In this document: in pieces, positions 1-60,800 of the stretch | Numbering within the stretch: the first letter of the stretch is position 1 | Layout: every line of letters starts with the position of its first letter | Assembly: GCA_004335835.1 (NCBI GenBank) | Contig: RWJK01001815.1 | Location: forward strand, 1-64,000 | Direction: 5' to 3' | DNA: 64,000 nt | From: Scenedesmus sp. ARA3 | Lineage: Eukaryota > Chlorophyta > Chlorophyceae > Sphaeropleales > Scenedesmaceae | Made by a program: the position numbers and the translations under genes | Notes under the pieces: generated by a model | The model's input: the letters and a program-made list of their open reading frames with translations, nothing else | Told to the model about the DNA's origin: nothing | The model's database searches: none

Positions 1-2123
1 CATGTTATTTTGCAGCTGGTGTGTGGGTGGCTTCAGCTCCCACAGCTCAAACACCAGGTTGCTGATGTAGGGGGGCCAGCGCTGCAAGTCACAGCCCAGC
101 GCTGCGTGCAGAACAAGCAGGATTGTACGTTGTGTTTAGTTAGGGATAAGATATGTCATGTCAACAAACATTTGGGGCCCAGCGCTGCAGGTCACAGCCC
201 AGTGCTGCGTGAGGAAAACAAGTGCACAAGAACACGCGTTGCTTATGAGTTGTTTGGGACAGGGACGTTATCAAGGGATGCAGCACAAATGCCACGGAAC
301 TGGACTACCGCATGAAACAGCAGCTGCAACGGACAAACACATCCTGATGCACAACAGGACGCATGACGGGGAGCAAGCGAGTTTTGCAGTACGGCGCGTG
401 CATTCATGCCAAGTTCATACTCCCAACAAAGATCACGCGAACACCACCCTGCAGAAGCTTGCTGGCACGCAATAGCAAGCCTGGCAGTCTCTTCAGTCTT
501 GAAAGCACAACAAAGCACATGTCAAACATCCATACTAGATAATAAAATGGCTCACCTGTGAGCAGCGGCATGATGGTGGAGTCATGCCCACTGAACATCA
601 TCAGCTTGGCATGGCTGCTGCTGCTGCTGCTGCCAGCCTGGCCTGCTGCTGCTGCTGCTGCTGTCTCCATGTTTGCCAGCAGGATGTCCAGCAGCCGCCC
701 CATGCTCAGCCGCAGCACTGCGTGGCCGTGCTCATCAACGAGCGCGGGGCAGATGAACGCAGAAATCTCCTCTGTTGCCTGCAAGTGTTGGCACATACAG
801 CATTTTAGACATCTGCTCAGTCGCAGCACTGCGTGGCCGTGCTCATCAACGAGCGCAGGGCAGATGAAGGCGGAAATCTCCTCCGTGGCCTGCAAATAAT
901 GGCAGCATTGCATATTGCCAACATTATTTGCTCATCAACCAGGGCGACACATATGAATGCAGAAATCTCCTCCGCTGCCTGCAAGTGTTGGCACATACAG
1001 GATCAGTTGTCAAAGCAATACGTTGCATCTACTGGGTTGCCTGCATAGCAAGCAAGCGGGCGGATGAACGCAGAGATCTCCTCTGTTGCCTGCACACAAT
1101 GGCACGTGCAGCATAATGTTTGCCAGCAGGATGTCCAGCAGCCGCCCCATGCTCAGCCGCAGCACTGCATGGCCGTGCTCATCAACCAGGGCGGGGCAGA
1201 TGAACGCAGAAATCTCCTCCGTCGCCTGCAGGACACATGCAGCAATGAACGTTGCAGATGAGCATGATATCATGTTTGTTGCCCGCATGGCTATGGTTAT
1301 CCACCAGGGACGGGCAGATGAACGCAGTAAAGTTCTCCGTTGCCTGCAAACAACAGCACATGCAGCATTGCGCATGGCAGGTGAGAGCTGACATGTCCAG
1401 CAGCCGCCCCATGCTCAGCCGCAGCACTGCGTGGCCGTGCTCTTCAACCAGTGCCGGACAGATAAAAGCAGAGATCTCCTCAGTCGCCTGCAAGTGTTGG
1501 CACATACAGCATTTTAGACATCTGCTCAGCCGCAGCACTGCGTGGCCGTGCTCATCAACGAGCACAGGGCAGATGAAGGCGGAAATCTCCTCCGTGGCCT
1601 GCAAGTGTTGGCACATACAGCATTTTAGACCTCTGCTCAGTCGCAGCACTGCGTGCCCGTGGCTGTCCACCAGACACGGGCAGACGGAGGCAGATATCTT
1701 CTCAGTCACCTGCAGGACACATGCAGCAGCGCAAATTGCAGAACCGCCAGCACGCACCGCACACACAAAGAGACGACAACTCGTGGAACTGCACAAGCAT
1801 GAATTCACAGAACCAGCATCCAGGAAACAGCCATGCACAAACAACAACTAGATTCACAGTGAGTGTGTTGTTGTGCTCACCAGCCTGTCCACTGCCTCCT
1901 TCATCTCCTCGGTCAGGCCGTGAGGCAGCGCCTTGCCGTGGGCGGCCAGTGAGGTGAAGGCGTCATGCACGTCACTCATCATCCACCTGCAGGTAGCAGA
2001 ACAAGCCAGAGGCAGAAACAATCAAATGCCTCTCTCTTCATAGCCCTGCATGCTGTTGGTTGTCCACACCGTGCAAGTGCATGCACCCAACACATATCCC
2101 TAGTCACGTGTGGGAAATCTACA

Positions 2124-2165
<42 letters not shown>

Positions 2166-4410
2166 CTCTCTGCAGCCATTCAAAAAGGCACGCTGCCCCC
2201 GTGCACCTGAAAGGATAGTGCTGTCTCCTTACCTCTTATCCCATGCTCCCTCTGGCAGGTTGAGCAGCTGTGTGAGCTGCTGCTGCAGCTGCATGATGCC
2301 CTGCGCTCTGCTGGGGCTCTCCCAGCTCGCTGCAGCAGCACAGTGCAGCACAGTGCAGCACAATGAAGTACAGCAGGCAGATATGTTGCATTCAGATTCA
2401 CGTCTGGCACGCTGTGGGTGACTTGCACTTGCAGCCCTGCTGGGCTCCCCCAGCTTGCTGCAGCAGCACATAAACCAGACATCGCAGATGCTAGCAACAC
2501 ATTGGGCAGCGCTGCCTACCCAGCACCCTACACCTCCTTAGTACTGCTGCTCAGTTGTAGTCCAGGCAAACCTGCCCTACCCCAGTTTGGAACTCAATTA
2601 TTGCTGTTTTAGCAGTCACTGCCTGCTCAACTCACCTTTGAGCATTGCCTCTGAGTCCTGCGTCAGCACCTTGAGGTTTGGGCAGCCCTACCCGCCCAAC
2701 ACACAAACAAAAATACTGCTGTCTGTGCTGTTGTTTGTGTGTGCTAGCTGCTTGATCCACTCACCTGTCAGCATCGCCTCTGATGCCTGCGTCAGCACCT
2801 TGAGGTGGGGGCAGCGCTGGCCTGCCCAACACCCTGAACCAATGTATGTGCTGTGAACTGTTGGTACACACTGCAATTCTCACTCACCCTTGAGAATTGC
2901 CTGTGAGGCTTGCATTAGCACCTTGAGGTGGGGGCAGCGCTGCCCTACCCAACACCCCAAACCCTTCTTTCTCTGTACCGCAATTCATACCTAGACTGTA
3001 CTAGCGCTGCCACTCACCCTTGAGCATGGATTTTGAGGTTTGCATCAGCACCTTGAGGGCAGCAGCTCTACCCACCCAACACATAAACAAAACACCATTG
3101 TCTGTGCTGTTGTTTGCGTGTACTAGCTGCTTGATTCGACTCACCTTTGATCATCGCTTCCGAGGCCTGCATGAGAACCTTGAGGTGTGGGCAGCGCTGG
3201 CCTGCCCAACACCCTGAACCAATGTATGTGCTGTGCACTGTTTGTACGCACTGCAATTCTCACTCACCCTTGAGCATTGCCTGTGAGGCTTGCATTAGCA
3301 CCTTGAGTTGGGGGCAGCGCTGGCCCACCCAGCGTTTTAAACCTACTTTCTCTGTACCCAAACGTACATTTGCTCTGTACTGATCGTGCTACTCACCCTT
3401 GAGCATGGCTTCTGAGGCTTGCATGAGCACTTTGAGGTGGGGGCAGCGCTTGGTGTCTGCATACAGAATCTCATCTAGGTCACCCGAGGTGGTCACGGGG
3501 ATGGGCTGCGTGACGCCTGTGCATTGTGAGCGGCAGAAACAAAGATGTTTGAGTGAGATGTACACACATGGTCTCATCTAGGTCGGCTGAGGTGGTCACG
3601 GGAATGGGCTGCGTGACGCCTGCACATTGTGAGCGGCAGAAACAATGATGTTTGAGCGAGATGTGCACACATGGTCTCATCTAGGTCGGCTGAGGTGGTC
3701 ACGGGAATGGGCTGCGTGACGCCTGCACATTGTGTGCAGCCCGAAAAAAAAGCACGAGTCAGTGGGATGCGCATACAAAATCTCACCCTGCTCACCAGAG
3801 GTAGCCACGTGATGTACCGGCTGACGCCTGCGCCCATGCCAAACGCCTAATGCGCAAGCGTCTACTGCTGAAGCATCTACTAGCTGTGGATGCTGCTGCA
3901 TTGTAGTATTGTTCTACTGGTCACTGGGATGGCGGTTGTAGATTGTTCAGTATGCTATGCTGCACTAGCACCCCTGCAGCTGTCGCAATGCCTCCCTGTT
4001 GCACTCCCTCATGCACACCTGGGTACAATCCTGTCAGCACGCCCGCCAGGGTGGCACGCGTGCGGCTGAAGTTGGTGGTACGTGCAGCCACCACGCCTGG
4101 TGCAACAGCAGCAGCACAAAAAGCAATAAGAAAGCACAGCAAGGCGCCGCAGCACGTCACCAGCAGTCAGAAGCAAGCACAAGCAAGAGGCATCATGCCG
4201 GGCGTTGAACAACAGCTGCAACAGCAGCATATCTTGCAAGCACCAGTGCATACCATTGAAGCATAGTCAAACCTGGTCAAAGTTGATCAAACACAGTCAA
4301 ACATGGTCAAACATGGTCAACGGCTCACCTGGCTTGAGGCTGGCAGGCAGGAAGCCGTAGGTGTCTATGTACTGCTGCCGCAGCCAGTAGCCCAACTCCA
4401 GCGCCTGGTT

Positions 4411-4444: not shown

Positions 4445-6269
4445 GCACAGCGAGTGATTTGCCTGAGTGCAATGCACGCATACAGCACAGCAGCATAGCA
4501 GCAGATGCAGGAACACCGCATGTGTCTGCCCAGACGAGCATTGCACACAGCTAGCCGTCCCCAAGCCGGCTGCGGTAGACTTGCCGCCAGCATAACATAA
4601 CACACAGAGCCCACACAGATTTTGAGCAATAACACCAATTGACTCCCCTGCGGCGCATTGTGCTACTGCCTCAGGCATGGTAGAACAGCATCAAACATAT
4701 GCACGCCACAGCACGTGCTGGTGCATCTGTTGCCTCTTCAACTGGCTGTACTTCATTGTGCAAACTCATCACATGTGGCCACTGCCGAAGCACGCCCAGA
4801 CGCAGCTCAGACGCAAGGAAGCACATGCAAGTACATGTTGAAAATATACATGCTACCACATGCAAGTACATGCAGGTGCATGCGAATACACGCAATGCAG
4901 CTACATGGTGAGTGCCCACTGCGTAGCTGTTCATGTCCCTCAGCCCCTGCAGGTCCCACCTGCAGCCCAGCATTAGCAATTCCAGCAGCAGCACAGAACC
5001 AACATAACACATACACATGCATGAAAATTGCCCACTGCGAAGCTGTTCATGTCCCTCAACCCTACCTGCAGCTGGCCCAGCTTTGTGAGCTCTCCTTTGC
5101 TGGTGCCACCAGCAAGCTTGGTGGAGACCTGCAGCAGCAGCAGCAGCAACAGGGGCTCAAGCTACCAGCAACTAATAGCAGCAGGGGCTGGTGGGGTTAA
5201 CAGCATACGGCTGCAGCAGCCCTTGCGGCACATGCGCTGCAGCACTGCCTGCCTCATGATCTGCACGCCTTAATGCTGCTGCTGCTGTTGCTGCTGCTGC
5301 TGCCAGTATCTCTCAGGTGTTTGCATGCTATCACTTGTAGTGCAAGTGATATCACAATGCAAGAGGCGCTCACCTGCTTTTGATCGTGCTCGTTTGGTCC
5401 TGCCGGGCCGCCATTGACGTCAAAGAGCTGCAGGGGCACCGCCTGTGCAGGAAAACAAACAGGAAGCAAAGCCCACAGTGTGGTTGGCACAAGCAATGAA
5501 TTTGCTTGCTGTAACACGGTGCCGGCGGTGTTGCTGCTGCATCATGGCAATAGCCAGGCTTCCCACAGCAGCTGTTGCTGCTGTTCAAGCGCAGCACTGT
5601 GTTTGCTGCAGGCTGCCCTGACACCTGCTGCCATGTTCATGCTGCATGCATATGTCTTGTGGGCTTATTTGCTGCAGCAGGTGCAGGCGCATGCTGATTC
5701 CGCTGATGGGATAGCCAGCTTCTGTTGCAGCGCCTGTGCAACACGCCAGCACATGGCAGTGCCCAGCAAGCACCTGCTGCACTTGCCTTGTATGCTGGGC
5801 CACCAACATTCCACTCCTGGCCCTCCCACAGATATGATGCATCTGTAAGAGGTGTCCTAGCCCCGTGCCTGCAAGCCAGCATGCATGCAATGCTTTTTTT
5901 TCAGTGCAGGCCGGTGCTGTACTGCTGCTGCAGTGCAAAGTTGCGGCACGAACGCGGGGATTCACGTCGATCGCAGCAGAAAAACACTCAGAGCTGTCAA
6001 ACGTATTACCTGAAAACTACTTGCACTAGACGTAGCTGTGCGTTGCGTCGATCCAGCTTGATTTGGCCGCTCAGGCTCTGCTGCGAAGCAGGAGCCTGAG
6101 ACCCTTCTGCTGTTGCATGCCCACGAGCGCCTACTGTTGCTGCAGAGAACGCGGCAGCCGCGCCAATCATAAGACGCCTCTGCATTGCGCTGCTGCCGAG
6201 TGCGTGCGTGGCAGATCCAGGGACACTTTTGCTGTGATGCTGCGTGATTCCTTTGGATGAGAATAGCAT
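1..6269 (-). CDS. Histidine acid phosphatase, lysophosphatidic acid phosphatase type 6 (ACP6)-like; C-terminus beyond the window
   Basis: Branch-2 histidine phosphatase; relatives dephosphorylate lysophosphatidic acid, in animals in mitochondria. Phase-consistent exons: 6269-6010, 5868-5787, 5442-5374, 5128-5066, 4404-4329, 4096-4019, 3516-3397, 2329-2233, 1986-1881, 778-556, 101-<1. The first exon encodes a basic, Ala-rich presequence (MQRRLMIGAAAAF), probably a transit peptide or anchor. The catalytic RHGARTP lies at residues 87-93, split across intron 1 and preceded by VQVVF, close to ACP6. GTSKGELTKLGQLQ, LGYWLRQQYIDTYGFLP and RTTNFSRTRATLAGVL follow in family order; the proton donor FSGHDSTIMPLL (HD about 382-383) and WPPYISNLVFELWE close the fold. 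Intron 2 has a GC donor (AAG|GCAAGT). Exons 4, 7, 10 and 11 are flanked by intronic half-exon arrays. Start 6269 is the first ATG in the open frame; the annotated substrate is inference from similarity. Confidence 0.88.
160..215 (-). repeat. Decayed acceptor-half copy of phosphatase exon 11
   Basis: One diverged copy of the start of the WPPY exon (the part reading ALGCDLQRW) with its CAG acceptor, placed upstream of the intact exon that starts at 101. It is not needed for the reading frame. Confidence 0.6.
790..1730 (-). repeat. Array of about eight acceptor-half copies of phosphatase exon 10
   Basis: Intact exon 10 is 778-556. Upstream of it about eight partial copies, spaced roughly 85-170 bp apart, carry a CTGCAG-type acceptor followed by a stretch reading TEEISAFICPALVDEHGHAV or a close variant (near 893, 985, 1095, 1230, 1350, 1492, 1604, 1714). 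None carries the MGRLLDILLAN-to-HD part of the exon except a short MGRLLD piece in some. Copies differ by point changes, so they are old enough to have diverged and are not an assembly echo. Confidence 0.9.
2124..2163. repeat. (CTG)n tract in a phosphatase intron
   Basis: About 12 uninterrupted CTG units in the intron between exons 8 (2329-2233) and 9 (1986-1881). Confidence 0.9.
2630..3335 (-). repeat. Array of six donor-half copies of phosphatase exon 7
   Basis: Intact exon 7 ends at 3397 with LKVLMQASEAMLKG and an AAGG|GTGAGT donor. Downstream of it, six further copies of this exon end plus donor recur with a period of about 124-130 bp, ending near 3270, 3146, 3017, 2888, 2764 and 2636. 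Each keeps the (A)AG|GTGAG-like donor; exon parts differ in a few positions. They fall in the intron before exon 8. Confidence 0.92.
3570..3840 (-). repeat. Array of three acceptor-half copies of phosphatase exon 7
   Basis: Intact exon 7 starts at 3516 (GVTQPIPVTTSGDLDE). Upstream are two good copies (acceptors near 3620 and 3722, period about 101 bp) and one decayed copy near 3832. With the donor-half array this makes one exon expanded on both sides. Confidence 0.9.
4900..4985 (-). repeat. Donor-half copy of phosphatase exon 4
   Basis: The stretch from the exon 4 donor into the intron at about 5071-5030 (CTGCAG|GTAGGG, then GAGGGACATGAACAGCT) recurs once downstream at about 4975-4915 with small changes. 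Confidence 0.75.
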
Positions 6270-22126: not shown

Positions 22127-22886
22127 CCAGGCACCCGGAGCAGTTGTACACGCAACAGCAGTGGTATTTCTGTTACTTCTACAAAAGCCTCCACCGGCTA
22201 CCAGGGCCCCACATGAATGCAGCTGCCACGCCAGGCACCACTATTGTTTTTGTGCGTTACTGTCCTACTCAGCTACCTCATTCGCCGACTGGCCTGAGGC
22301 CCCCACCTGAATGCAGCCGCCACGCCAGGCACCACATCTGCCACGCAAAAGCAGCTACAAAAGGCTCCACTGGATACCAGAACCCCACCTGAATGCAGCT
22401 TCCACACTAGGCACCACAATTTTCTGTGTGCGTTACTGTCCTACTCAGCTACCTCATTCGCCGACCGGCCTGAGGCCCCCACCTGAATGCAGCTGCCACA
22501 CCAGGCACCACATCCCTCCGCTTCGCAAACAGCAGCAGCCCGCTTGTGTTGTAGTCTAAGCGGTGCAGCACATATGGCTTGGCGTTGGCCTGGTGCCTTG
22601 GCTGCCGCTGCTGCTGCTGCTGCTGCATTGAGGCATCTGCGCTGCTAGCCCCTGCTGCTGCTGCTGCTGCTGCAGCCTGGGCGGCTGCAGTTGCTCCTGT
22701 AAGATGTCCTAGTAACAGGTTGACCATGCTGCCACTCTGCCACCTGCACAGCAGCAGCACCACACATTGCAAATAGTGCCAAAGATGCAGACGGATGGTC
22801 AGGGAAAAAAGCTATGGATGACTATACCACAGCACAGAAGATACGTTGCCAAGCAGCACACATGCCACATGCACATGTGATTGTCG

Positions 22887-22929
<43 letters not shown>

Positions 22930-39500: not shown

Positions 39501-40232
39501 AGAGCAAAAACGTCGATGAAATTTGCTGTGCCGTCAACTGGCAGCGGGCAGCACAAGGCTAGCAGCTCAGCAGGAGAGGCGGCAGGTGGATCCACTGCGC
39601 TGCTGCCTGCACACCAGCAGGCGGCAACAAAGCAGAAGAATGGGTGAAGTGCAAGTGGATTGACATAAGCCAGCAACAGGCATGCAATCAACAGGCCAGC
39701 TGCTTGCTTACTGCAACACCTCCAAACACAATGCATGCCCACAAGCAGCAGCCGTTGTGCCAAGGAATCAGTCAGCTCGCAACAGCATCACCACCATCTC
39801 ACCAGCAACCACCACAGATATGTATATCCTAGCAGCATCAGTGCACACCTTGCACCCTGAAGCAGGCTGAGAGTGCATGGTACCGCTGAACCGGCTGGTC
39901 ATCAGCTACAACTGGCCATTTACATGCATCTTCTGTCACAGCAGCAAACCATCGATAGTGTCCTCACCTGGTTCTCTATTGAAGCAGGCTGCGAGTTCGT
40001 GGTACCGCTGCGCCAGCTGATCAGTGCTCTCATACTTGAACAGGCTTGGGTGGGCCACAAAGCTCGGCAGCAGCTGCTGCAGCGGCAGCCGCAGCGCCGC
40101 CGGCGCCTCGTGCAGCATGCGCGTCACCTTTGCCAGCTGCTTTCTGGAGCTGATCAGGTAGGGGTGGCGCAGCGCAAACTCAGCTGCTGCATGGCCCTGT
40201 TGGCATGCAGCATGATAGTGGCAGTAGTAGGT

Positions 40233-40270
<38 letters not shown>

Positions 40271-40272
40271 GC

Positions 40273-40324
<52 letters not shown>

Positions 40325-43300
40325 ACAGCAGCAGTGTCAGGGATATGCCAGCAGCAGGGGCAAATGTATGGCTGTGCAATGCATGTGGCGCCTCAGCTGC
40401 ATGCGCGCCACCTTGGCCAGCTGCCTTTAGGAGCTGAGCAGGTATTGGTGGCGCAGCGCAAACTCGGCTGCTGCGTGGCCCTGTTGATTTCAGTGCCAGC
40501 AGCAGAAGCAGCAGTAGAGTTGAGGGCGAAGGGTTTATGTATTGCTAGGGTGCAGGAAGCGCGCCGAAGCCGGAGGCAGAATAACCGGGTGGTGTTGTCA
40601 AGCATGAGGTACACGTAATGCTTATATGACAGACAGGAAGCATGTCCACACAGCAAGGAAGCAGCGGCCAGGCATTATGTGCCTGCAGCTACACCGGCAG
40701 CAGGCCCACAACAACACCAGCGGCATATTCCCTACCTCCTGCAGCCACAGCAGGCGCCGCAGATGCTCTACTTGCAAGCCACTAGCCACATCCACACCAC
40801 ACAACAACAGCGACACCAGCAGAAAGTGCAACAGCGTTCGTCTTATCTGTCTTATCTCACCTCATGCAGCCCCAGCAGCTGTCCCAGCTGCTGCACTCTT
40901 TCCAGCATCCCCCCAAAGCTGCTGCTCAGCAGCACGCCTAAGCATGCTGCTGCGCCAGCCGCTGCGCTGCCGCCAGGTCACCCCACCAGCAGACACCCCA
41001 GCTGCACCGCGGCCAGCCATTAGCCACATCAACAGCTTCTCTCTCAATTGCCACATCAAACACGCCATTACAGCAACACCAGCAGCAAGTACAACACAGT
41101 CTTCATTTCTTTCTCGCCTTTTTCAGCCCCAGCAGCTGTCCCAGCTGCTCCACTCTTTCCAGCATCCCACCAAAGCTGCTGCTGAGCAGCACGCCGACAT
41201 GCTGCTGCGCCAGCCGCTGCGCTGCTGCCAGGTCACCTTGCAACAATGCCAGCAGGCCTGCCAGGTGGCTCTGCAACTGCTCACATGCAAGCCACTAGCC
41301 ACATCCAGATCACGATAAAACAGCAACACCAGCAGTAATGAATCAATCAATCAATTACACGTTTTTTGACACCAGCAGTAACTGCGACAAAACCTTCATG
41401 TATTATTAAACCTCACCTGCTGCAGCCCCAGCAGCTGTCCCAGCTGCTGCACTCTTTCCAGCATGCCCTCAAAGCAGATGCTCTACATGCAAGCCACTAG
41501 CCACATCCAGACCGCACAACTACAGCAACACCAGCAGCAAGTGCAACACATCGTCTTCTTATCTCACCTCCTTCAACCCCAGCAGCTGCCCCAGCTGCTC
41601 CACTTGCTGCAGCATTCCCCCAAAGCTGCTGCTGAGCAGCACGCCTGCATGCTGCTGCGCCAGCCGCCGCGCAGCTGCCAGGTCACCTTTCAACAACCCC
41701 AGCAGGCCTGCCAGGTGGCTCTGCAACTGATACACATGCAAGCCACTGGCCATATCCAGACCACACGATTACCGCTACACGAGTAGCAGGTGGGACAAAA
41801 CATCATCTTTGCCTCACCTCTTGCAGGCCAAGCAGCTGTCCCAGCTGCTCCATTCTTTCCAGCATTCCCCTGAAGCTGCTGCTCAGCAGCACGCCCGCAT
41901 GCTGCTGCGCCAGCCGCTGCGCAGCTGCCAGGTCACCTTTCAACAACCCCAGCAGGCCTGCCAGGTGGCTCTGCAACTGCTGATCTGGAAGCCTCAGGGC
42001 TTTTGTGAATGTCCAGGCGTCACTGAGTAGCTGGCTGGGGGGCTGCATGGACAGGCGGCACTTGAAGGATGCTACTATGCGAGTGATCTGCTCACTCACT
42101 TCATGGGGGTCTGCATGGGCAAAACAGAAGAATATGCCGCATGTGTTGAAGTTGAGAAAAGAGCATGTGGTGAAGACTTGCTGGAAGGGTTTGCAGGACA
42201 GAAGATTGTCCAATGCAGCCTCAGGGCTTTTGTGAAGGTCCAGGCGTCACTTAGCAGCTGGCTTGGGGGCTGTGTTGCCAGGCGCCGCTTGAAGGATGCC
42301 ACAATGCGGGTGATCTGCTCGCTCACTTCATGCGGGTCTGCATGGGCAAGACAGAGAGAGAGATTCCGCATGTGTTAAACGCACGAACAAGCATGTGTGT
42401 GGTAAAGGCGTGCTGGGCAGTTTGCAGGACAGAAGATTGTACAATGCAGCCTCAGGGCTTTTGTGAAGGTCCAGGCGTCACTTAGCAGCTGGCTTGGGGG
42501 CTGCATGGCCAGGCGGCGTTTGAAGGATGCCACAATGCAGGTTATCTGCTCACTCACTTCATGGGGGTCTGCATGGGCAAAACCATAGAGACACCGCAAT
42601 GTTTTGAACGCAAGACCAAGTGTGTGCGGTCCAAGGACTTGCTGGAGAGTTTGCAGGATAGAAGATAGTCAAAGGAAGAAAGCTCCAGGGCTTGTACGAA
42701 GATCCATGCGTCACTGGTTTCAAAGGTGCGTGGATAGGCAGGAGTTGATTCCTAGTGTCACAAGCAAGACCGTGTGTGTTGCAGACGCAAACATAACATG
42801 ACTTGACATGACGTAACATAACATGACGTGGTGTACATACGCCGCTAACCTTTGGCCAGCAGCTCGGCGCGCAACTTTGTGTCCGGCAGCACGTGCCGCA
42901 TGCGCCGCACCGCCCTGTCCACATAGCTCAGCTGCATTGCTGCAATGGTGGGGTGCAGCAGGTCCCGTGCATCAAGGTGGGGGTGCAGCCTTGCCAGCTC
43001 TAGAGCTTTTGAGATGGCCTGAGAAAGGGAAGCAAATGATGCCGTGCCCTTCTGCACGCGCCGCTGCGCAAGCTGCAAAGAACATGCACGAAAAGCAGCA
43101 GCAGGCAGAGGTGTTTCTTGTGAGGTGTTGGCGGCAGCAGCAGTAATTGTGTTGGCAGCAAAAAGTGGGAGGTTGCACAAAGTGGGCGATGGGTGCAGCA
43201 GGTTTCGTGCATCCAGGTGGGGGTGCAGCCGCGCTAGCTCCAGCGCTTTTGAGATGGCCTGGGAGAGGGATGCAAAGGATGCAGTTCCCTTCTGCACGCG

Positions 43301-43820
43301 CCGCTGCGCAAGCTGCAAGGGCATAAACAGCAGCAAAAGGGGACAACAAGGATAAAGGACAGCAGGAGGCAGCGAAGGGGGTTTGCTGAAGGGAATGGAG
43401 CAGAAGAGCAACTGTAGGGATGCAAAACGACGTTGCTGCATGTGTTGCACGGTGGGAGAGTGAAGGATATCAGTCCCACCTGAATGATGCGCAGAGCCTC
43501 AGGAGCATCCAGCCCTGCTGCTGCTGTCCCTGCTGCTGCCTCAGCACCACTGCTGCTGCTGCCCTGCTGGTCCAGCAGGGCTGCTGATGGCAGCCGCAGC
43601 CCTGCCAACCCTCCTGCTGCTTCGGCTGCAGTTGGATCGCCGTTTGAAAAGATGTCATCGACATCAGTTGGATGCTTAGCCGACAAAAGTAGGTCTGCTG
43701 CAGCAGCTGCATTATCTTTGGTGTGACGCTTGCGCCGTGGGCGTTTGACATCTGCAGCGCTGGCAGGTGGTTTCGGTGAGACAACCCGGCCTTTTGTGCT
43801 TATGCTGTCTCTTACAACAA

Positions 43821-46496: not shown

Positions 46497-47850
46497 TTAT
46501 GCGGTCACTCCGTCCGCACTGCGTACATGTTTAGGGCATCTAGCTTTGCCGTGCCTGCCTGGATGTCTTTTTGTGGCACAAACGGCCCCCCTGAATCCCT
46601 TGCTCACTCGGTAGCCGTGGCTGTCAAACCACCTGCAGGACAGATTAGCAGCAGCAGGTGTTGGCAGCAGCAGCAGCGGTGGCAGCCACAGGTCCATGTC
46701 ATTGCAGTCAACTTGACTGAGTCTTAGCTTGTGGTTCCAAGAGTGGTAGGGCCTGTCGCTGCCGGAGCACCATTGCAATGTGCATCGCATGCTGTGCTGC
46801 AATTGGCAAGGTGCAGCATCCGCCTTCAAGGCAAGTTGCCCCTCAGATACGATTCAATCGTATCTGCTCGCAGCAGTACCAATACAACCAATAAAATGGA
46901 AACTCTCCCTTTACAGCCTACAAAGTAACCATACGATCAAAACAGCACTGAACCAATGATTAAGTTATCTCCAACTTACTGCAGGTACTTGATTTGGCTG
47001 TCGTGCCCCACAATGTCGGTGTTGCACTCCGCAAGTATGTAGCGCACGCGGTGGCGCTGCAGCAGCCCCTCAGCGCCCTGCAGCACCTGCAGCTCAAATC
47101 CTTCCACATCGATTTTCAGTACCTGCACGTGCATTTGCAAATGCAAACATTTTTAAAACCGCATCATCATGACCTTGTCAGCAGCTAAGCTGTAGCACCC
47201 TGCAGCACCTGCAGCTCGGACCCCTCCATATCCATCTTGAGCACCTACACATGCATACAAACAACAACACGGCAAGAACTGGGTGCAGTCCTCAAGAGCA
47301 GCAGCGCCCTGCAGCACCTGCAGCTCATAGTTACCCACCAACCTTGAGCACCTGCACAGGCATGTGCAATTGCACACAGCCGCATCATCATGATGTCGTT
47401 GGCAGCAGCCCCTCAGAGCCCCTCAGAACCTGCAGCTTATAGCCCTCCACATCTATCTTGAGCACCTGCATGTATGCAAGGGTGCATAACTCAGAGCTAC
47501 CTCAAGGTCTGATCTTCATAAGCAGCAAAAACAGCAGCAGCAGCCCCTCAGCGCCCCGCAGCACCTGCAGCTATTAGCCCTCCACGTGTATCTTAAGCAA
47601 CTGCATGAGCACATGTCGGCGCATGCGTACAAATAACATGGCGGAAATTATAATGATGATAAGCAGCAAGTGATGCTGCTGCAGCAGCGGATACTCTACG
47701 TGGCATGTCCCGATTGCTTCTGGTGCAGCGCACTCTGCTTGGTCTTGGTAGCACAAGCACCGCTCGCACCTGCACATCCTCAGACAGCAGTGTGTCCAGC
47801 CGCCGTAGATCCGTCGACCCGCGCACCTTCAGCAGCATCAGCATCAGCAT

Positions 47851-47892: not shown

Positions 47893-49306
47893 ACACAAGT
47901 AATACAATCCCTTTACCTCCCACCAACACTTTGACACTTGCTGTGAAGGCACGCAGCCGTCTCGACATTGGCAATCACATGCTATGCGCAGGTATGTTCG
48001 TAAAATTCTCTGCTAACCCTGTTCATCACCGCAGCATGCTGCCAAACACTGTCTGCCGCACCTCCATGGTCTCGCCGCGTGCCTTGTGCCCTTCCAGCAC
48101 CTTTGCTAGATCTTCATCGCACACGGTGTGGCCAACACCCTTGTTGCCGCTGCCGCTGATGATGTGGCAGGAAGAGGTGTGGTCTCCCAAGCCTGCAGGA
48201 CGGCAAAATGCAGCAAACATACCCTAAAGTTTCAGCCAAGACAATCAAAAAGTTCACGCTTCTGCTGCCGCTGATGACGTGGCAGATGGAGGTGTGGTCT
48301 CCCAGGCCTGCAGGATGGCCAAATGCAGCCAACATACCCTAGAGTTGCAGTTAAGACAATCAAAGAGCTCACGCTTCTGCTGCCGCTGATGACGTGGCAG
48401 GTAGAGGCACGGGAGCCGAGACCTGCAGGGCAGGGTCCAGCACGGATTGGAGGTTTGAACCATGAGTGTGGCCGTCACCCTTGTTTCCGCTAATGATGTG
48501 ACATGTAGAGGTGTGAGTGCCCAGGCCTGTATGACGCTGGCAGTGGCGGATATACAGCATTTGCCTGGGAGGGCACCTGCTTTACATGCCAATTAGCTCT
48601 GCAAACGCCATGTTAACAGCATAAGCAGCATGCGCAAGCAGCCCAGCTCAGCCAACTATGTGCTGAGCAGAGCGGACATGTAGAGCTGCTGAGGCTTGCA
48701 CGGTGCTCAGCACACAGCAAAGTGTCAGCACATGCAGGCAGCAGTGTCTGTGCGTCCATCCGGTGCAGAAGCATGCGAACTGCACAACCAAATGTGGCAG
48801 CAGTGCCACTGCTACTGCTGCCAAAGGCGGTCAGTTGCATGCCTTGAAGGCTGCTGGCGCTGCTGCTGCTGCTGCTGCTGCTGCTGCCGCTGCGGCAGCT
48901 CACCTATGCCGAACAGTGCAAGCTGATCTATCAGCCAAGGTTTCAGGCAAAGGGAATGACGCAGCAACTCCATATTCTGGGCATGCCTGCAGTGCCAACA
49001 GAACAGCAGCAACAGCAACAATCATTGAGATGGCAAGTACAACACTACATGTCGGATGGAGCAGCATGTAGCAGGCGAAAGCAGCTCGCACAAGTACATG
49101 TGACATGGCACTGTATAAATAGTGAATGCAGCAAAGCAAGTAAAGGTCTCGCACTCTATCTTGTGCAACTGCAGCTGCAGCTACCCACCTTCAAACGCTG
49201 CAACCCTGGCACCCGTAGCTGCTGCATGGAACGTGAACGCTCCGATGTTTGCTCCAACATCAACCAAAAGTGGACCCGCAGCAGCGTTGCTCTGCTGGCC
49301 TTGACC

Positions 49307-53012: not shown

Positions 53013-54152
53013 CTGCTGCCAGGTGGGTGACAACAGCTGGCTACTTCAACTCTGAACTGGAAGCAAACGATGGAGCAGTCATCGAGGTTGTGCCAGCCGA
53101 CCCCCGCCCTAATATGACAGTGACGGCCATCCCTCAGCGACTGATGGCATATGACCCCCTGAAGCCCATCCCAAGACACCGTGCATACCTCGGTGAGCGC
53201 CGGCAAATAAATCCTATTTTATTTTGACCCCTGTAGCACAAAGCAACTCCTGCTTCAGCAGCAGCATCACCAGGCATACAGTATACCTCAGTACGTATAG
53301 CAGCAGCTGGTGCTGTATATGTTTTGTGGGTGCAATGACTGTGCAGTCATTGAGGTTGTGCCAGCTGACCCCCGCCCGAACATGACAGTGGCGGCCATCC
53401 CGCAGCGCCTCATGGCATATGACCCCCTGAAGCCCATCCCACGGCACCGCGCTTATCTTGGTGCGTCTGCCAGCAGCAGCANNNNNNNNNNNNNNNNNNN
53501 NNNNNNNNNNNNNNNNNNNNNNNNNNNNNNNNNNNNNNNNNNNNNNNNNNNNNNNNNNNNNNNNNNNNNNNNNNNNNNNNNNNNNNNNNNNNNNNNNNNN
53601 NNNNNNNNNNNNNNNNNNNNNNNNNNNNNNNNNNNNNNNNNNNNNNNNNNNNGCAGCAGCATGAACACCACCCTCAAAAAACCGCCTAATAACAGCTTCT
53701 CACGCACTGCTGCTGCTCCGCACTGCTTTTTGTCATCCGCAGACGGCTACCCCGGCCAGGCAGCCTTCGACTCCGGCTGCAGCAGCATGAACACCACGCA
53801 GCGCTACTTCACAGAAGCCTCTCTCGAGCCAAACCTCGGCACCGGCATCCTTGGGCTGCCAGCAGAGTACCCACTATCTGGCTGTGTGGGGCAAAGTGGC
53901 GGGCGCGTGGTGCGTGGCGGGCCGGGGGGTTTAGCGTACGGCATTCAAACGTACGGAAGTACGGCATGTGAGCCGGATGAGCAACGGATGCTGCGGGGGA
54001 TGACTGGGGTGACGCAGATCAGTTTGAATTCGACGCAGTGCGGCGTGTGCGTGCCGTGCCTGGTGGCGGCACTGGAGCGGTACAACGGTAGCAGCAGCAG
54101 CAACAGCAGCAGCAACAGCAGCAGCAACAGCAGCGCCGGGACTGCAGGGTAA
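51414..54152 (+). CDS. Secreted trypsin/V8-like serine protease
   Basis: Phase-consistent exons 51414-52116, 52353-52424, 52651-52744, 53023-53192, 53743-54152 give 482 codons plus stop. The signal peptide is residues 1-19 (ALVVVALLSLACCA). A long low-complexity propeptide-like region follows (poly-Gln, poly-Ala, poly-Ser, basic RRNRRP). The protease domain starts about residue 205: LCSAWFVTPKHLVTAGHC spans intron 1 with His 236, ANDGAVIEV supplies Asp 306, and GCVGQSGG supplies Ser 398, the S1-type triad in order. Cys residues flank the domain (CCHFLPG, CGVCVPC), consistent with extracellular disulfides. The C-terminus is Ser/Asn-rich. A gap lies in intron 4. Its paralogue is at 57036-60356. 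The cleavage specificity cannot be read from sequence. Confidence 0.9.
51787..51839. repeat. (CAG)17 tract coding poly-Ser
   Basis: Uninterrupted AGC codons in protease exon 1; a second short run (CAG)5 lies at 51942-51957. Confidence 0.92.
52430..52472. repeat. (CAG)about14 tract at the start of a protease intron
   Basis: Begins six bases after the exon 2 donor (52424), so the 5' end of the intron is triplet repeat, as in mTERF intron 1. Confidence 0.9.
53335..53481 (+). repeat. Donor-half copy of protease exon 4
   Basis: NDCAVIEVVPADPRPNMTV and on to PIPRHRAYLG with its G|GTGCGT donor duplicates the exon 4 end (53192) downstream; only a few silent or conservative changes. The copy runs into the assembly gap. 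Confidence 0.9.
53482..53652. other. Assembly gap, 171 N
   Basis: Run of N inside protease intron 4, between the donor-half copy and an acceptor-half copy; further repeat units are probably missing. Confidence 1.
53653..53692 (+). repeat. Partial acceptor-half copy of protease exon 5
   Basis: SSMNTT followed by divergent sequence matches the start of intact exon 5 (GCSSMNTTQRYF) and lies upstream of it, directly after the gap. Confidence 0.65.
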
Positions 54153-54275
54153 AGCCACGCAGTGCGGCGTGCGCGTGCCGTGCCTGGTGGGGGCACTGGA
54201 GTGGTTCAACGGCAGCAACAGCAGCAGCAGCAGCGGCAGCAGCAGCAACAGCAGCGGGACTGCAGGCTAACCAGC
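54153..54275 (+). repeat. Copy of the protease 3' terminus after the stop codon
   Basis: Sequence coding CGVRVPCLVGALEWFNGSNS and a Ser/Asn tail ending in a stop repeats the last exon end (CGVCVPCLVAALERYNGSSS). It is in the 3' UTR. Confidence 0.88.
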
Positions 54276-57035
54276 CCAGTGCTGTGAGGTTCTGAAGGAC
54301 TGTGCCAGCAAGCGCATAATATTGCATGGCTTGTGGTTCCCTCATGACAACGTTTAGCGGGTTGATTGGGTAGGGTTTGGTGCTGTTTCTGCGTGCAACG
54401 GATGCATTTTATGACTCATGCATGTGGCAGATTCACGGATAATCGGGATGCCCTGGGGCGTGCACATACCCTCAAAGCATTTTTTGCAACTGCTTGCAGA
54501 GACATGACCATGCTATGTTGTCAGATGTGCCTATTCATGCAAAGGAACAGGGAGACCGCTGCAGGGTTACAGCGCCGCCCTTGTCTTAACGTGCGTTCCG
54601 TCTGGGGACCATTGCTGCATGCTGCCGCGCTCTGCAGCGGGCATCTTCTTTCCAGCCTGCAATGCTGCAGCTACTTTGTTCATCACCCTTGCTGTTGGGG
54701 TGCATACTGCACGTACTCGGGGTACATTGCGTTTCATACTGCATATGTTTCATGTTGCATGACCTGGATGCTGCGAGGGCGAAACAAATGAGGATGCACA
54801 TGTCTTCTCATTGACGCCTACACTGATGCTGATGCACATGGCAGGCGTTATGTATGTGGTGCATGCTGCAGTCTCATTGATCGGCGGTGTTTGGAGCGAT
54901 GCATCATCATGTTGTACCGTACTTGATGCGTTGTACCGTACTTGATGCGTTTGCATGTTGCAGCACTTGGGGTGACACCTCACCATAGCGTGGCTTCTAG
55001 ACAAAGCCATTGCGTGACGTTGGCTGCAGCTGACTTGTTGCATTGTTCTGGATGACCGTTGGATCTCTTGAATGGCAGTGGCTGCCCCACCTGTTTGCGT
55101 CACCAGTTGTGCACATGACACAGCCTGCTACATTGTTCGTTGTGCTAATGCTTGCAGTGGTCCACTGCCAACTGCATCAGCGAGTTGTTGGCTGTTGCTG
55201 ACAAAACGAACACAGCACACGCTGTCAATGCTTCCTGGTGACCCAGCACCAGACATATATTGGAGCACAGGGTGGCGTGCTTAGCAGGCTGCTGCTGCTG
55301 CTGCTGCACGGGCAGCTTGACTCTTATGCGTCACTGGCTGACGCGCTCACGGATTGTGCATGCCTGCAACATGCAGGCGTCGTGTGAGCTGTGACGATGT
55401 TGCATGTGCTGTGCAGCATTGTTGACTGCCATTGAACAAAGGGCAACTAATGGGTTGTTGTGCGTGTTTGCTGTTGCGGCACACACAGATGTCTGTGAGC
55501 TGTGATGAAGCCGCAGATGCTATGCAGCACTGTTGAGCATCTACTGCCACTTGCGAAAGGGCAACTGCCGCATGGTTGTGCATATATGCTGGAGGCTGCA
55601 GCTGCCTGTGGTACAACGTTGTACAGTGTGAACACTGTAAGTGCAGCCGTCTTCAGCAACTGGACAGCGTGTGGATGCCAGCAAAATGTGCAAAAGAGCC
55701 TCTCCTATTGTGGGTAGTACGCTGTGCCCACACTAGGAGATCAAATTGTCGTTTGGAGGGCCCGTACTGCGGTCCGTGAGGACTCGGAGGATGTGTGACT
55801 CGGAGGATGTGTGACTCCGTTCTTTTTCACGCCTGGTGTGTGTTTGCTGCTGCATGCTCAGCTGGCATTCAGCTCAGCAGACCCTCAGGGCCTGGGTGCA
55901 TGCAGCTGCATGTTGGCGAAGACGTCACATCTGGTCGTCGATATAAGCTATGTCTGCAGGTATGTGGCTCTGCAGTGATTGGACTCTGCCCATTGGAAGT
56001 GAACAGCTGGCAGCTGTCGGCAGTGCAGACTCTGCACTTCAGCTGCCTGCAGCCAGTGTATGAGATGCTTGCATAAAGTATCTGAATCCTTTGTTTCACT
56101 TTCATCCATCAGGTGCAAGGTCAAAATGCCGGCGATGGGTTGGTCCTGGGGTGTCTTGCGTCTCAGCGAACGTATACGGATTCGTGGTTGCTCAGGGGAC
56201 AGCCGGCCATGCTATCGGCCACCAAAATAGCATATGAAGCTCTTAAATATGTCCCCAGCGTATTAAATCTCAAAACAGCCGCTGTAAATCCAGTTGGTCC
56301 CGGGTGACACATGCCAAACCTCGTGGTCTATTCTGTGTTCATGCACTGTTGAGCCTGCCCAGCGCCTGAAACTTGTTTACATGCATCTCTATAACGTGAT
56401 CTTGTCTGGCAACTCTGCAACAAACAACGTATAGAAGGACTGGCGAACACGCGACACAAAACGAAGCGGCACCGTTCACAACAGCGTGGTCAATGATGTC
56501 ATATATGTAACTGTACTTAGTCTGAACGGTTGGCTTCGATCAGGTGCGTGCGCAGTTGTATCGCCGAGCCTGCTTGCCCGTTCTTGGGCGATGCATGTGT
56601 CCACCGCAGCGGGTTTCCTGTCATGAATAAAGCATGAAGCTCTTACAAGTATTATCTCGGGGATGTCAGCCGTTTCGGCAGCACTCCGGCCTACTGTGCC
56701 AGTGCTTGCAATAGGGCGCTCAGGCAGCAGCAGCACCAAGGGGTGGCGTGCACAGCCGGCATCAACACCTGACGTCACTGGCCGTCTATCAGCATTCGCT
56801 ACATATACAGACGGCCCATAGCAGCAGTACTTGCCGGCCATGCTGTCAGCTGCAGGAATTGCAGCTTGTCATCCAAGCAGGCTGCAGAGGCGAGCACAGC
56901 TGCTGAAAAGAAATCTTCTTAGCAGGACAACCGCTCCAGGCGTTCCACATGTTTCGTGTACAAGTAAAGTATGGGCAATGATGGCTTGATGCTGTTTGCT
57001 TTCCTCATCGTACTGGCTGCAGGTGCATAGCAGCG
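54276..57035 (+). other. Unresolved interval between the two protease genes
   Basis: Holds a possible small secreted or Cys-containing gene on the plus strand that I cannot model: segments at 55502-55717 (AACGTTLYSVNTVSAAVFSN ... SLSYCG, stop), 55880-55959 (MQLHVGEDVTSGRRYKLCLQ before a GTATGT donor) and 56113-56307 (starting after a CATCAG acceptor and ending AAVNPVGPG, stop). Two 113-bp tandem units occur at 55384 and 55497, and an 18-bp tandem (GGAGGATGTGTGACTC) at 55785-55816. The rest shows nothing identifiable. Confidence 0.25.
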
Positions 57036-60000
57036 ATGAAGTGCCTGCAGCTGCTCACAGCGCTGCTGTGGGTGTTATCGCTTACTCAAGCAGCAGCGGC
57101 AGCAGCAGACGTAAACACAGGCAGTGCTCTAGAAAGCAGCAGTGGCAGCAGCAGCAGTGGCAGCAGCAGACGCAAGTTGCGGCAACTACAATGGTACTGC
57201 CAAGGCGGTGGCGCCGGAGAAGTAATAGCTGCTGCAGGTGTCACTAAGCGCAGCAGAGCGGCTGGCAGCAGCAGCAGCAGCATACGAGCAGCCGTGCTGC
57301 CATTAACATATGACATGAGAAAGGTCCGCAGGTTCAGGCGGAAAGTTCCGCTAGAGCGACAAAAGGCGTTGTATGAGGCACGCGTTGCTGCAGGCGAAGG
57401 CAGCGTGAGCACCAGCAGCAGCTGGCGCGCATCTGCAGCAGCAGCAGCTGCGGCTTTCACGCCAACTGCAGATGCAGGCAGCGGCAGGCTCAGCAGCAGC
57501 AGCAGAAGAGAAAGTGTGGTGCTGCCTGCTGCCCTTGTGCGGCCTGCTTCAGTGTGTCAGCTGGACCCTCCTTTCAACCAGACAACGTTCAGCAGGTGGG
57601 CCTTTGATAGCGTCACCTCCTAACACAACCAACCTCAAGCTGTAAGTGACGGTTGAATGTTGTTTACGCATTCAGCTAACATATTTTAATGAAGCAGGCA
57701 GCAGTAGCATTGGAAATTTCGCACACATGTGCACCCCACCCCACACCCACATGCTGCTGCCGCTGCCGCTGCCGCTGCCGCCGCCGCCGCTGCCGCCGCC
57801 GCCGCTGCTGCCGCTGTGCAGGACGACCAGTCGATTGTTTATCCAGAAAAATGTCGACGGCATGGAGTACATTTGCATTCAAACCGCAAACCCACATGCT
57901 GCTGCTGCTGCTGCTGCCACCGCCGCTGCTGCTGCCGCTGTGCAGGACGACCTGCCGGCTCTTCGTCCAGAACAAGGTCGACGTATGGACTACATGTGCA
58001 CCCCACCCCTTACCCATATGCTGCTGCCGCCGCTGTCGCTGCCGCCGCCGCCGCCGCCGCTGCTGCTGCTGCTGCCACTACTGCCGCTGTGCAGGACTAC
58101 CTGCCCCCTCTTCATCAGGACAAGTCTGATGGCATGGAGTACATGTGCACCCTAACCACACACCCACATGCTGCTGCCGCCGCTGCCAGCCGCTGCTGCT
58201 GCTGCCGCTGCCGCTGCTGCTGCCGCCGCTGTGCAGGACGACTTGCCGCCTGTTCATCTAGAACGAATTCGACGGCACAGAGTACATGTGCACTGCGTGG
58301 TTCATCACACTCACCTGCTGCTGCTGCCACTGCCGCGCTTGCAGGACAACTTGCCGCCTGTTCATCCAAAACAAATTCGACGGCACGGAGAACATGTGCA
58401 CCGCGTGGTTTATCACACCAACATGCTGCTGCCGCCACCTCCGCTGCTGCCGCTTGCAGGACGACTTGCCGCCTCTTCATCCAGAACAAGTTTGACGGCT
58501 TGGAGTACATGTGCACCGCGTGGTTCATCACACTCACATGCTGCTGCTGCCGCTGCCGCTTGCAGGACGACTTGCCGCCTGTTCATCCAGAACAAATTCG
58601 ACGGCTTGGAGTACAACATGTGCAACCCAACCACACTCCCACATGCTGCTGTCGCTGCCGCCGCCGCCGCCGCCACTGCTGCCGCTGCTGCTTGCAGAAC
58701 AACTTGCCGCCTGATCATCCAGAACAAATTCGACGGCTTGGAGTACAACATGTGCAACCCAACCACACTCCCACATGCTGCTGTCGCTGCCGCCGCCGCC
58801 GCCGCCACTGCTGCCGCTGCTGCTTGCAGAACAACTTGCCGCCTGTTCATCCAGAACAAATTCGACGGCCTGGAGTACATGTGCACCGCGTGGTTCATCA
58901 CGCCTCGCCACGTCGTCACCGCCGGCCACTGCGTGTCGACCGGCAGCCCGGGATGGTACCACATCGACGAAAGCAATCCCGGCTCGATGTGCTGTCATTT
59001 CTCCGAGCAACGATCCACAGGCCGATCGACGTGCACTCGATCCCGCACCTGGCGTCTCCTTCGATGGGTGACGACAAAAGGATACCTCGAAGGCGAGGTC
59101 GAGGGGAATGACGGGGCAGTTATCGAGGTGGAGCCCGTGGATGCTAATAACACGCTGGCGCCGCTTGTTCAGCGGCTGCAGCCGTTTTACCCGGGCCGGG
59201 TCGGCGGTCACACGGTTTACATGGATGGCTACCCCGGCCCCACCAACTTTGATGTGGGCTGCGAGAACCTCAACATCACCCGGAGGTGAGCCATGCATGC
59301 TGCATTGTTCGGGTTTGTCCTAGGGTTTAAGATTGTCCTAAGGTTTGGAATTGACATGGCTGTGCAAGCCCGTCGCTCTGTTGCTGCCACCTGTTTTGCC
59401 CACCAACTTTGATGTGGGTTGCGAGAACCTCAACATCACCAGGAGCTGAGCTCGGCACGCTGCGCAAATGAAGTTCAATACACCTATTGGTGGCGCTGTA
59501 ATAACAGTGTTGCGCATGCCTGGGTGGTAAGGTAGTCATCTCACCTTTGTTACCATGCAAGCTGTAGCTGACGGATACTGCCCAAGTGAGTTGCATGTGC
59601 TCAATGCACCTGTGTTTGCTTGAAGTCGTAACCACCTAACATGCTGCTGCTGCTGCTGCTGCTGCGTCTGCTGTGTTTAAAGGTACGCCACGCAGTCAGT
59701 TGTGAGACCCCTGTGGGACGACGGCGGTGAGTTTGGCTTGCCCGTGGAGTATGCTGTGGCGGGCTGTGTGGGGCAGAGCGGCGGGCGCGTGCTGAGGGGC
59801 GGGTCAAACGGTGGCGCCTACGGCATACAGGTGAGGCCTCATGCTGGTCGCATGCTGCAAATTCCCGCCTCTGTACTACACTGCATTGCTTGTTGCATAT
59901 GGCAGTGAGGTGAGGCCTGCTGCTTCCGGCACTGCATTCAGTATACATACGGCATCGGGGTGAGGCTCGCTGCTCACGGCATTGCCCGCGGAGCATACAG

Positions 60001-60356
60001 CACCCAAGGCGGTGCACTGCTGCTGCTGCGCTGGCAGCGTCTCCCATGCTCAACTTCAAACCTAAAGCGTCTGACTCTGTCGCTACGCCCTGCAGACGTA
60101 CGGCAACACCACTTGTGAGGGTGGCCGCGGCTTGACCGGCGTCACCCAAATCTCAACCGAAGAGGCCGAGTGTGGCGTGTGTGTGTCATGCCTGCTGGCA
60201 GCCATTCAACAGGCGGCAGGAGTCAACACCTCCAGCCCTTCACCAAGCCCCAGCCCGGTATCAAGCCCCAGCCCCAGCCCCAGCCCATTGCCGTCGCCAC
60301 ACAGCATTGTGGAGCTGCCAATTGAGAGCCCAGAGCCGCCGCCAAGCCCCTTGTAA
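57036..60356 (+). CDS. Secreted trypsin/V8-like serine protease with Ser-Pro-rich C-terminus
   Basis: Paralogue of the protease at 51414-54152. Phase-consistent exons 57036-57595, 58830-59285, 59683-59830, 60096-60356 give 474 codons plus stop. The signal peptide is MKCLQLLTALLWVLSLTQA; a Ser/Ala-rich basic propeptide-like region follows (YDMRKVRRFRRKVPLERQ). Triad: TPRHVVTAGHC His 220, EGNDGAVIEV Asp 281, GCVGQSGG Ser 371. The C-terminus has alternating Ser-Pro repeats typical of hydroxyproline-rich algal wall or matrix proteins, suggesting attachment outside the cell. Introns differ from the paralogue: those after VTAG, NPG and NVTK are absent here, while this gene has an intron at FSR/TTC. 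That intron (57596-58829) holds an array of eight decayed copies of the exon 2 start. Confidence 0.9.
57750..58829 (+). repeat. Array of eight acceptor-half copies of protease exon 2 with CTG/CCG triplets
   Basis: The exon 2 start (RTTCRLFIQNKFDGLEYMC, intact from 58830) occurs eight more times upstream, at about 57818, 57940, 58092, 58233, 58343, 58457, 58564 and 58697; period 107-150 bp. Every unit has CACATGCTGCTG, a run of CTG/CCG triplets acting as polypyrimidine tract, a GCAG acceptor, then the exon part. The two copies nearest the exon are almost identical over 133 bp. Open frames of several hundred codons cross the array but in non-protease frames. Confidence 0.95.
59395..59450 (+). 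repeat. Donor-half copy of protease exon 2
   Basis: The exon 2 end coding TNFDVGCENLNIT(R) recurs once downstream of the intact donor (59285). Confidence 0.9.
59885..60000 (+). repeat. Two donor-half copies of protease exon 3
   Basis: TACGGCATACAG|GTGAGGCCT (intact to 59830) recurs as ATATGGCAGTGAGGTGAGGCC at about 59897 and ATACGGCATCGGGGTGAGGC at about 59948, with similar flanks. Confidence 0.7.
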
Positions 60357-60800
60357 GTCAGTGAGGGGCTTGCTTGCAAGCTTGCTGATCTGCAGCAGCG
60401 GCAGCGGCAGCGGCAGCAGCAGCAGCAGCAGCTTGTGGAGATTGCTGTGGAGAGCCCAGAGCCGCCGCCCGGTCCATTGTGATAGGCAGCAGGTGGTCTG
60501 CTTGCAAGCATTTGCTGAGGCAGCAGCAGCAGCAGCAGCAGTGGCTGCTGCTGCACAGTGCGCGGCAACGTATGCTCTTGTGTCGTGGAAAGGAGAGCCC
60601 AGAGCACCCGCCCAGTTCCCTGTAAGCTAGGGGTTGCCTTGCAAGCGCTGGCTGGCTGCAGCAGCAGCAGCAGCAGTGGCAGCAGCAGCAGCAGCAGCAG
60701 CGGCAGTTGCTGCTGGCATGCGAGCCCCTGCCGCTGCTTGCTCAGTATGCGGCAGCGCATGCTCATGTGCTGTCAATGGAGTAGCAGAGCCCTGGCCACT
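60357..60800 (+). repeat. Three copies of the protease 3' terminus after the stop codon
   Basis: The last codons and stop (ESPEPPPSPL) recur as AVESPEPPPGPL plus stop near 60480, as a decayed form near 60620 and a remnant (GAGTAGCAGAGCCCTGGCC) near 60795, separated by CAG/GGCAGC-rich spacers. Confidence 0.8.

Follow-up and report, generated by a model that had tools for sequence, protein, structure and literature searches.

The window analysed here is a stretch of 64,000 bases, comprising bases 1-64000 of the 76,819-base contig RWJK01001815.1 in the assembly GCA_004335835.1 of the green alga Scenedesmus sp. ARA3 (87.3 Mb, 1,567 contigs), and we describe the tandem arrays of half exons that lie in the introns of its genes. 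Judged from two window genes that match T. obliquus proteins at 97-98%, the source is Tetradesmus obliquus or very close to it. The gene set consists of an acid phosphatase (ACP), a pseudouridine synthase (PUS), an mTERF gene, an FkbM-like gene, and proteases 1 and 2; the names mTERF and FkbM-like were taken from an earlier reading of the sequence (the earlier note), and the Pfam match of the mTERF gene reaches 13.6 bits, below the cut-off of 23.1. That note counted six unrelated genes, but the two proteases are paralogues, which leaves five families.

We built the gene models by hand with all copies skipped, which gave 34 introns and 68 internal exon edges. Along its full length (100%), the ACP model shares 99% identity with protein P0001, which may be non-independent of the window, and the PUS model, likewise from end to end (100%), shares 98% with a T. 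obliquus protein. The matched database proteins of both genes skip the copies, as the earlier models had done, and the acid phosphatase of a relative (69% identical over 87%) has the same junctions as the ACP model when compared by eye. The best local alignment of the mTERF model to a T. obliquus protein is 97% over 35%, and the FkbM and protease models stand without matching-protein support for copy skipping. The donor of ACP exon 2 is GC (AAG/GCAAGT, position 5787, minus strand). Exons 1 and 2 of the FkbM-like gene are not cleanly joined in frame (48904-49189, minus strand), which may reflect a missed exon, an indel, or an assembly error.

Self-BLAST of the window yields some 25 local tandem clusters (22-23 after merging of neighbours), and the earlier claim of about 25 intronic arrays, in which each unit joins an intron piece, a splice site, and part of the adjoining exon, is borne out. 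Split by edge, there are 25 arrays: 12 acceptor-half, 11 donor-half, one across a stop codon, and one ambiguous at a gene end (Table 1). The copies stand head to tail in a single orientation with roughly even spacing, and the copy number per array varies with the search threshold. Both kinds, acceptor-half copies before and donor-half copies after the intact exon, occur at ACP exon 7, PUS exon 6, mTERF exons 3, 4, and 5, and protease 2 exon 2.

Table 1. Half-exon arrays and single copies in the window, with the intact exon to which each belongs.
Positions	Strand	Type	Intact exon	Copies	Unit or spacing	Remarks
71..211	-	acceptor-half copy	ACP exon 11 (1-101)			upstream of the exon
669..1742	-	acceptor-half array	ACP exon 10 (556-778)	8	unit mostly 111 bp	
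2433..2470	-	short acceptor-half copy	ACP exon 8 (2233-2329)			
2619..3450	-	donor-half array	ACP exon 7 (3397-3516)	6	spacing 123-130 bp	
3458..3831	-	acceptor-half array	ACP exon 7	3	unit 103 bp	
4913..5071	-	donor-side repeat	ACP exon 4 (5066-5128)			only ~6 bp of exon; under edge-search threshold
19538..20652	-	donor-half array	PUS exon 6 (20558-20821)	4	spacing about 219-245 bp	
20729..21452	-	acceptor-half array	PUS exon 6	3	unit about 190 bp	
22179..22514	-	donor-half array	PUS exon 4 (22483-22743)	3		threshold-40 search
22897..23752	-	donor-half array	PUS exon 3 (23681-23818)	3		
36811..37236	-	donor-half array	mTERF exon 6 (37161-37373)	2	unit 173 bp	
37541..38420	-	donor-half array	mTERF exon 5 (38359-38903)	6	spacing 123-164 bp	
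38790..39681	-	acceptor-half array	mTERF exon 5	5	mostly 124 bp apart	
39848..39899	-	donor-half copy	mTERF exon 4 (39968-40196)			alignment stops short of edge
40102..40486	-	acceptor-half copy	mTERF exon 4		distance 285	
40753..41993	-	donor-half array	mTERF exon 3 (41818-42110)	4	spacing 150-300 bp	
41990..42715	-	acceptor-half array	mTERF exon 3	2	unit about 231 bp	
42951..43318	-	acceptor-half copy	mTERF exon 2 (42850-43072)		unit 240 bp	
47056..47611	-	acceptor-half array	FkbM exon (46980-47122)	4		
48149..48536	-	acceptor-half array	FkbM exon (48030-48192)	3		
53075..53463	+	donor-half copy	protease 1 exon (53023-53192)		unit 268 bp	
54033..54282	+	last-exon end with stop codon	protease 1 last exon (stop at 54152)			copied into 3' flank
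57725..58904	+	acceptor-half array	protease 2 exon (58830-59285)	8	spacing 106-149 bp	
59239..59463	+	donor-half copy	protease 2 exon (58830-59285)		unit 160 bp	donor GT now CT
60302..60698	+	repeat at gene end	protease 2			stop codon or donor

Each exon edge was searched against every intron of its own gene at a threshold of 40; among 451 control pairs of query and intron taken across genes, 99.5% score at most 36 and one (42) lies over the threshold. The search listed 25 edges, three of which were set aside: the matches at ACP E10D and PUS E1D are only CAG runs in other introns, and the target of P1 E4A is the donor-side copy of the same exon. Half-exon copies remain at 22 of the 68 edges (12 acceptors and 10 donors) across the six genes, and a stricter search finds them at 17 edges, none on the wrong side. 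The arrays are confirmed as real. According to the earlier note, acceptor-half units lie only upstream and donor-half units only downstream of the intact exon; no genuine wrong-side copy exists at any window edge, but this side rule is no discovery in itself. It is expected from geometry and says little about splicing, since after a duplication from a point in the intron to a point in the exon only the exon-side copy continues into the remaining exon. The repeated short duplication across exon edges that had been proposed for this locus is supported.

The 19 introns that bear arrays have a median length of 739 bp, which falls to 242 bp when the copies are subtracted, and the 15 untouched introns have a median of 236 bp. 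Thus, the arrays explain the excess length of the long introns in these genes, as the earlier note had suggested, and they offer a concrete, testable cause of intron lengthening. The mean intron of T. obliquus UTEX393, given in PMC5966456 as 462 bp, compared with 230, 302, 284, and 270 bp in four other green algae, fits such lengthening.

We also took a sample from elsewhere in the genome, one stretch from each of 20 other contigs (195,465 bases in all, including 17,180 N). The sample holds 84 arrays, in 18 of the 20 contigs, or ~0.47 per kb; extrapolated from 0.2% of the genome, the total would be some 40,000. Exons were predicted with our own gene finder, whose training used first the window and then the exons that it had itself predicted, and which recovers 21 of 40 hand-set exons exactly and 56 of 80 edges. 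A predicted exon edge lies inside 61 of the 84 arrays (shuffled 48.3, standard deviation 3.8), and 43 arrays are for the side rule and 10 against, with 31 tied or empty (shuffled 20.8 for and 20.7 against). The misses are no more than the errors of the gene finder would give, since on its own training window it scores 15 for and 5 against, of 23. Gene finders must reckon with spare half exons, as 52 of the 130 sample copies overlap exons called by our simple finder. Another score, which compared exon edges with random places, had a median of 23.6 against a null of 7.7 and just 7% above the 95% null quantile; it was left unused because the null places are exon-rich.

Duplication is not tied to splice sites, because stop-codon edges carry copies too, both at the end of protease 1 (54033-54282) and at predicted stop edges. 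By predicted type, copies occur at 5 of 17 stop edges (all five in the sample), 60 of 260 donors, 49 of 267 acceptors, and 1 of 9 starts. We counted as a further stop-edge case the C-terminal part of ACP on another contig (C431:60368-61425), where one protein match of 93% has three diverged ones of 70-84% beside it. In the window and the sample together, the shortest spacing peaks at 120-130 bp, with 66 of 120 arrays at 100-140 bp, in a search that permitted spacings from 45 bp. Unit length shows no threefold bias (40/43/37 for the three remainders modulo 3 in the 120 arrays). At 98 edges, the median exon part is 61 bp and the median intron part 83 bp; the splice site is far from uniformly placed within the unit, which is nearly accounted for if at least 45 bp of intron is required.

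The divergence of the copies is coding-like. Near the splice site, copy and exon are identical at 0.85 in the exon half and 0.62 in the intron half (67 copies), and two copies of an array at 0.82 and 0.62 (124 pairs); the median difference between a copy and its exon is 10% (5-95% range 4-18%). Across the three codon positions, the 69 window copies differ from the working half at rates of 0.076/0.044/0.198, and their single changes are 271 synonymous, 124 missense, and 4 stop, so that 68% are synonymous (271/399), compared with shares of 27/70/3% for random changes. The sample (130 copies at 80 edges) gives rates of 0.065/0.053/0.169 and changes of 379/207/4 (64% synonymous, 379/590); minus the window's contig (116 copies, 72 edges), these are 0.064/0.054/0.170 and 353/194/4. 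The FkbM exon 3, whose frame is uncertain, is included in the codon-position, splice-dinucleotide, and private-change counts of the 69 copies, and left out of the window edge-resampling, base-context, indel, and per-site missense and silent counts. Base context was ruled out as the cause of the codon bias, since the rates that it predicts are flat (0.123/0.129/0.132) when the context is derived from those 79 of 199 pairs whose intron parts could be aligned. CpG was also rejected as the cause, as the bias persists without CpG sites.

Per site, missense and stop changes in the window amount to 0.036 and silent changes to 0.216, so the time that a copy has spent dead seems, from its sequence, short beside the total divergence. 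With frequent frameshifts, unit lengths free of a threefold bias, and partner splice sites at chance level, the copies look dead now but appear to have diverged mostly while working. In mTERF, four residues that differ in protein P0213 of another strain fall inside duplicated halves, and the spare copies carry the residue of P0213, except that at one of the four sites one of four copies has a third residue; in ACP and PUS, the opposite is seen, as the copies agree with the window exon wherever P0001 or P0092 differ in duplicated halves (all compared by eye). This pattern is equally compatible with halves that were replaced and with changes that arose later in one strain or the other.

A copy that worked until recently and yet differs silently by a fifth should stem from another working version of the gene, most simply from one on a diverged homologous chromosome. 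We infer a repair route and a template of this kind, and put the probability at roughly 45% that copying outwards from exons displaces old halves into introns, the template probably being the diverged homologous chromosome. Short repair-type duplications would recur at the exons of this alga: after a break inside an exon, copying would run outwards, mostly for 80-150 bp, past the boundary of the exon into its flank, and the fresh end would then be joined across the break. The half made in this way would take over the work, and the older half, its splice site included, would stay behind in the intron and be skipped. With the homologous chromosome as the usual template, each spare half would be a former allele that has been displaced. 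If the genome is heterozygous, exons would be its most similar stretches, where copying could begin, and this would account for the exon edge held by the arrays of the six genes, none of which is wholly intronic (4913-5071 holds ~6 bp of exon), where random placement expects 6.6 of 22, with a chance of about 10^-3.6. According to PMC7955037, a close relative is likely diploid with separate alleles, and one T. obliquus strain was assembled to 208 Mb, compared with about 109 Mb for another (PMC5552973). It is a more doubtful, though possible, extension that the introns are a running archive of displaced alleles, in which each array preserves, in order, half exons that once worked, and the homology of exons sets where introns grow. 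If this attractive but unproven reading holds, single genomes sample past haplotypes, and the history of recombination and repair can be read from introns.

Several points weigh against displacement by outward repair copying. A search of the assembly with three genes gave distant members of their families but neither a paralogue nor a second allele, so that the diverged template is not seen; and between strains the proteins are only 1-3% different, a smaller distance than that from copy to exon. The divergence pattern would be mimicked by a synonymous clock that runs faster for exons in use than for dead copies. The lack of pure-intron arrays is partly a survival effect, because the frozen exon keeps crossing arrays recognizable for longer, and the true chance is thus higher than 10^-3.6. 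In the sample, wrong-side matches, which were not inspected individually, occur at 26 of 430 edges, compared with 80 right-side ones, and 26 of 97 sample arrays have no predicted edge, so that pure-intron arrays are possible there; the gene models behind these counts are those of our own finder, with the edge recovery given above (56/80).

It is unlikely, although still a serious alternative, that the spare halves remain under protein-level selection, either spliced into some mRNAs or cleaned by often overwriting the working half through gene conversion. In this direction point the 50 of 69 copies with an intact frame, whose changes (210 synonymous, 70 missense, and no stop) are not near neutral, compared with 61/54/4 in the 19 copies broken by a frameshift or stop, which are nearer to it. 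The splice dinucleotides are likewise exact in 50 of the 54 window copies that reach the edge, and in the sample in 113 of 130 copies (within 3 bases in 123). At ACP exon 7, three of the six donor-half copies can be read by eye as 57-bp in-frame exons, and the first version of our gene finder called two exons within this array. However, frameshift indels are not avoided, with 22 frameshift and 3 in-frame indels in 66 window copies and 40 and 6 in the sample, and the missing half of the exon is present only once. Partner sites are no better than in random intron: good donor partners occur at 0.05 of acceptor-half copies, fewer than the 0.18 of random intron, and acceptor partners at 0.47 of donor-half copies, the chance level (0.46). 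Cassette or mutually exclusive exons, which carry both splice sites, were rejected on these figures. The earlier note found no complete extra exon, and in the window none of nine copies from exons of at most 130 bp is whole; in the sample, the full exon is covered by 21 of 28 copies that belong to predicted exons of 50-80 bp, probably an effect of copies having themselves been called as exons. If the protein models are right, the spliceosome ignores dozens of well-preserved extra splice sites, which would point to exon definition in a green alga.

Plain tandem duplication on the same chromosome, by slippage, paired nicks, or sister-chromatid repair, followed by neutral decay of the spare half, appears improbable to us. 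It yields the same geometry, single cases and repair-made duplications of this kind are known, and the frameshifts and stops in the copies look neutral. Changes found in one copy alone (50/25/59 by codon position) also lie nearer the neutral pattern than changes found in the working exon alone (8/3/25). However, if the copy decays neutrally and the exon retains only silent changes, the share of silent changes has a ceiling of ~43%, computed from the random-change shares, and the observed 68% and 64% exceed it. Raw counts are non-independent, as copies in one array share changes; resampling by edge, which allows for this, gives median synonymous shares of 0.72 (20 window edges) and 0.63 (80 sample edges), with 0.05% quantiles of 0.53 and 0.54, both above 0.52. 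Copy-copy pairs are also coding-like (0.109/0.058/0.224), and one ACP exon 10 copy differs at ten third positions, silently in nine cases, and at no first or second position. Neutral decay could hardly be upheld unless synonymous sites change several times more quickly in exons at work than in dead copies, and the earlier picture of the spare halves as simply tolerated decoys derived from the present exon is not upheld.

An assembler that laid alleles or repeats in tandem is hardly credible as the source, for although the unit length is close to common read or k-mer lengths, the copies differ from the exon by the 10% median given above and by frameshifts, arrays hold up to 8 different copies and occur in 18 of 20 sampled contigs, and the 462-bp mean intron of UTEX393 comes from an independent study. 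Intron creation from duplicated AGGT-bearing exon segments, a known route of intron gain that likewise places duplications beside splice sites within genes, is equally remote, as its unit is exonic and the algal unit joins an exon half to an intron piece, as array introns retain a median of 242 bp without their copies, whereas this route makes an intron out of duplicated exon where none was before, and as 15 of the 34 introns are array-free at a similar median length. One case in question is the array intron of protease 2 (57595-58830), where the protease 1 paralogue reads straight through (52000-52116), so that the two neighbours differ by the gain or loss of an intron.

Duplications made by patch repair in rice and by paired nicks in Arabidopsis may be comparable cases. 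In the potato RdRp gene (PMC4974935), a duplicated unit likewise crosses an acceptor with part of the exon, but there one duplication in one gene made a new intron, whereas the alga has tens of arrays per 100 kb with many copies and needs no new intron. The repair-mediated duplications of vertebrates (PMC2671141) are also nearby, up to 619 bp long, with marks of synthesis-dependent strand annealing and some with splice sites; the part of that paper available gives 824 events in the human genome and mentions no tie to exon edges, whereas those of the alga are found at coding edges, repeatedly at one and the same edge. The short, close-by unit of such annealing is seen here in the 66 of 120 units at 100-140 bp. 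Introners (PMC9860276) likewise change intron content en masse in algae and other eukaryotes. Such elements copy themselves into many genes, and the algal units are local and gene-specific. One mTERF array, searched with simple repeats and very common words skipped, matches only its own locus, and within the window no distant match links two arrays except via CAG runs. In titles and abstracts, the literature on boundary-crossing tandem arrays and green-algal intronic repeats offers single cases and intron-gain reviews and no genome-wide account, and two short T. obliquus genome notes (one of them PMC5552973) do not mention the arrays. The arrays are spread through the genome as far as sampled and are of a known mutational kind; we did not find their density and divergence pattern described.

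Several further features lie in or beside the window. A third protease relative is situated just past its end (C1405:64990-66038), and the 10-kb stretch around it has ten more arrays. No array lies inside either of two leucine-rich repeat (LRR) protein genes of opposite orientation (7093-9377, minus strand, and 16377-18114, plus strand), which share ~71% DNA identity over 1.2 kb. Viral and prokaryote contigs scanned for relatives of two of the proteins gave none. Stretches masked with N occur at 33870-33965 and 53482-53652, the latter within protease 1 intron 4. CAG/CTG triplet runs of up to 33 repeats are very frequent throughout the window, in coding and non-coding sequence, and a 36-bp minisatellite with 4.1 identical copies lies outside the gene models at 63146-63291. 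Two pairs of direct repeats, ~7 kb apart and 71-74% identical, partly consist of triplet runs (11136-11308 with 18187-18359, and 11987-12123 with 19267-19388).

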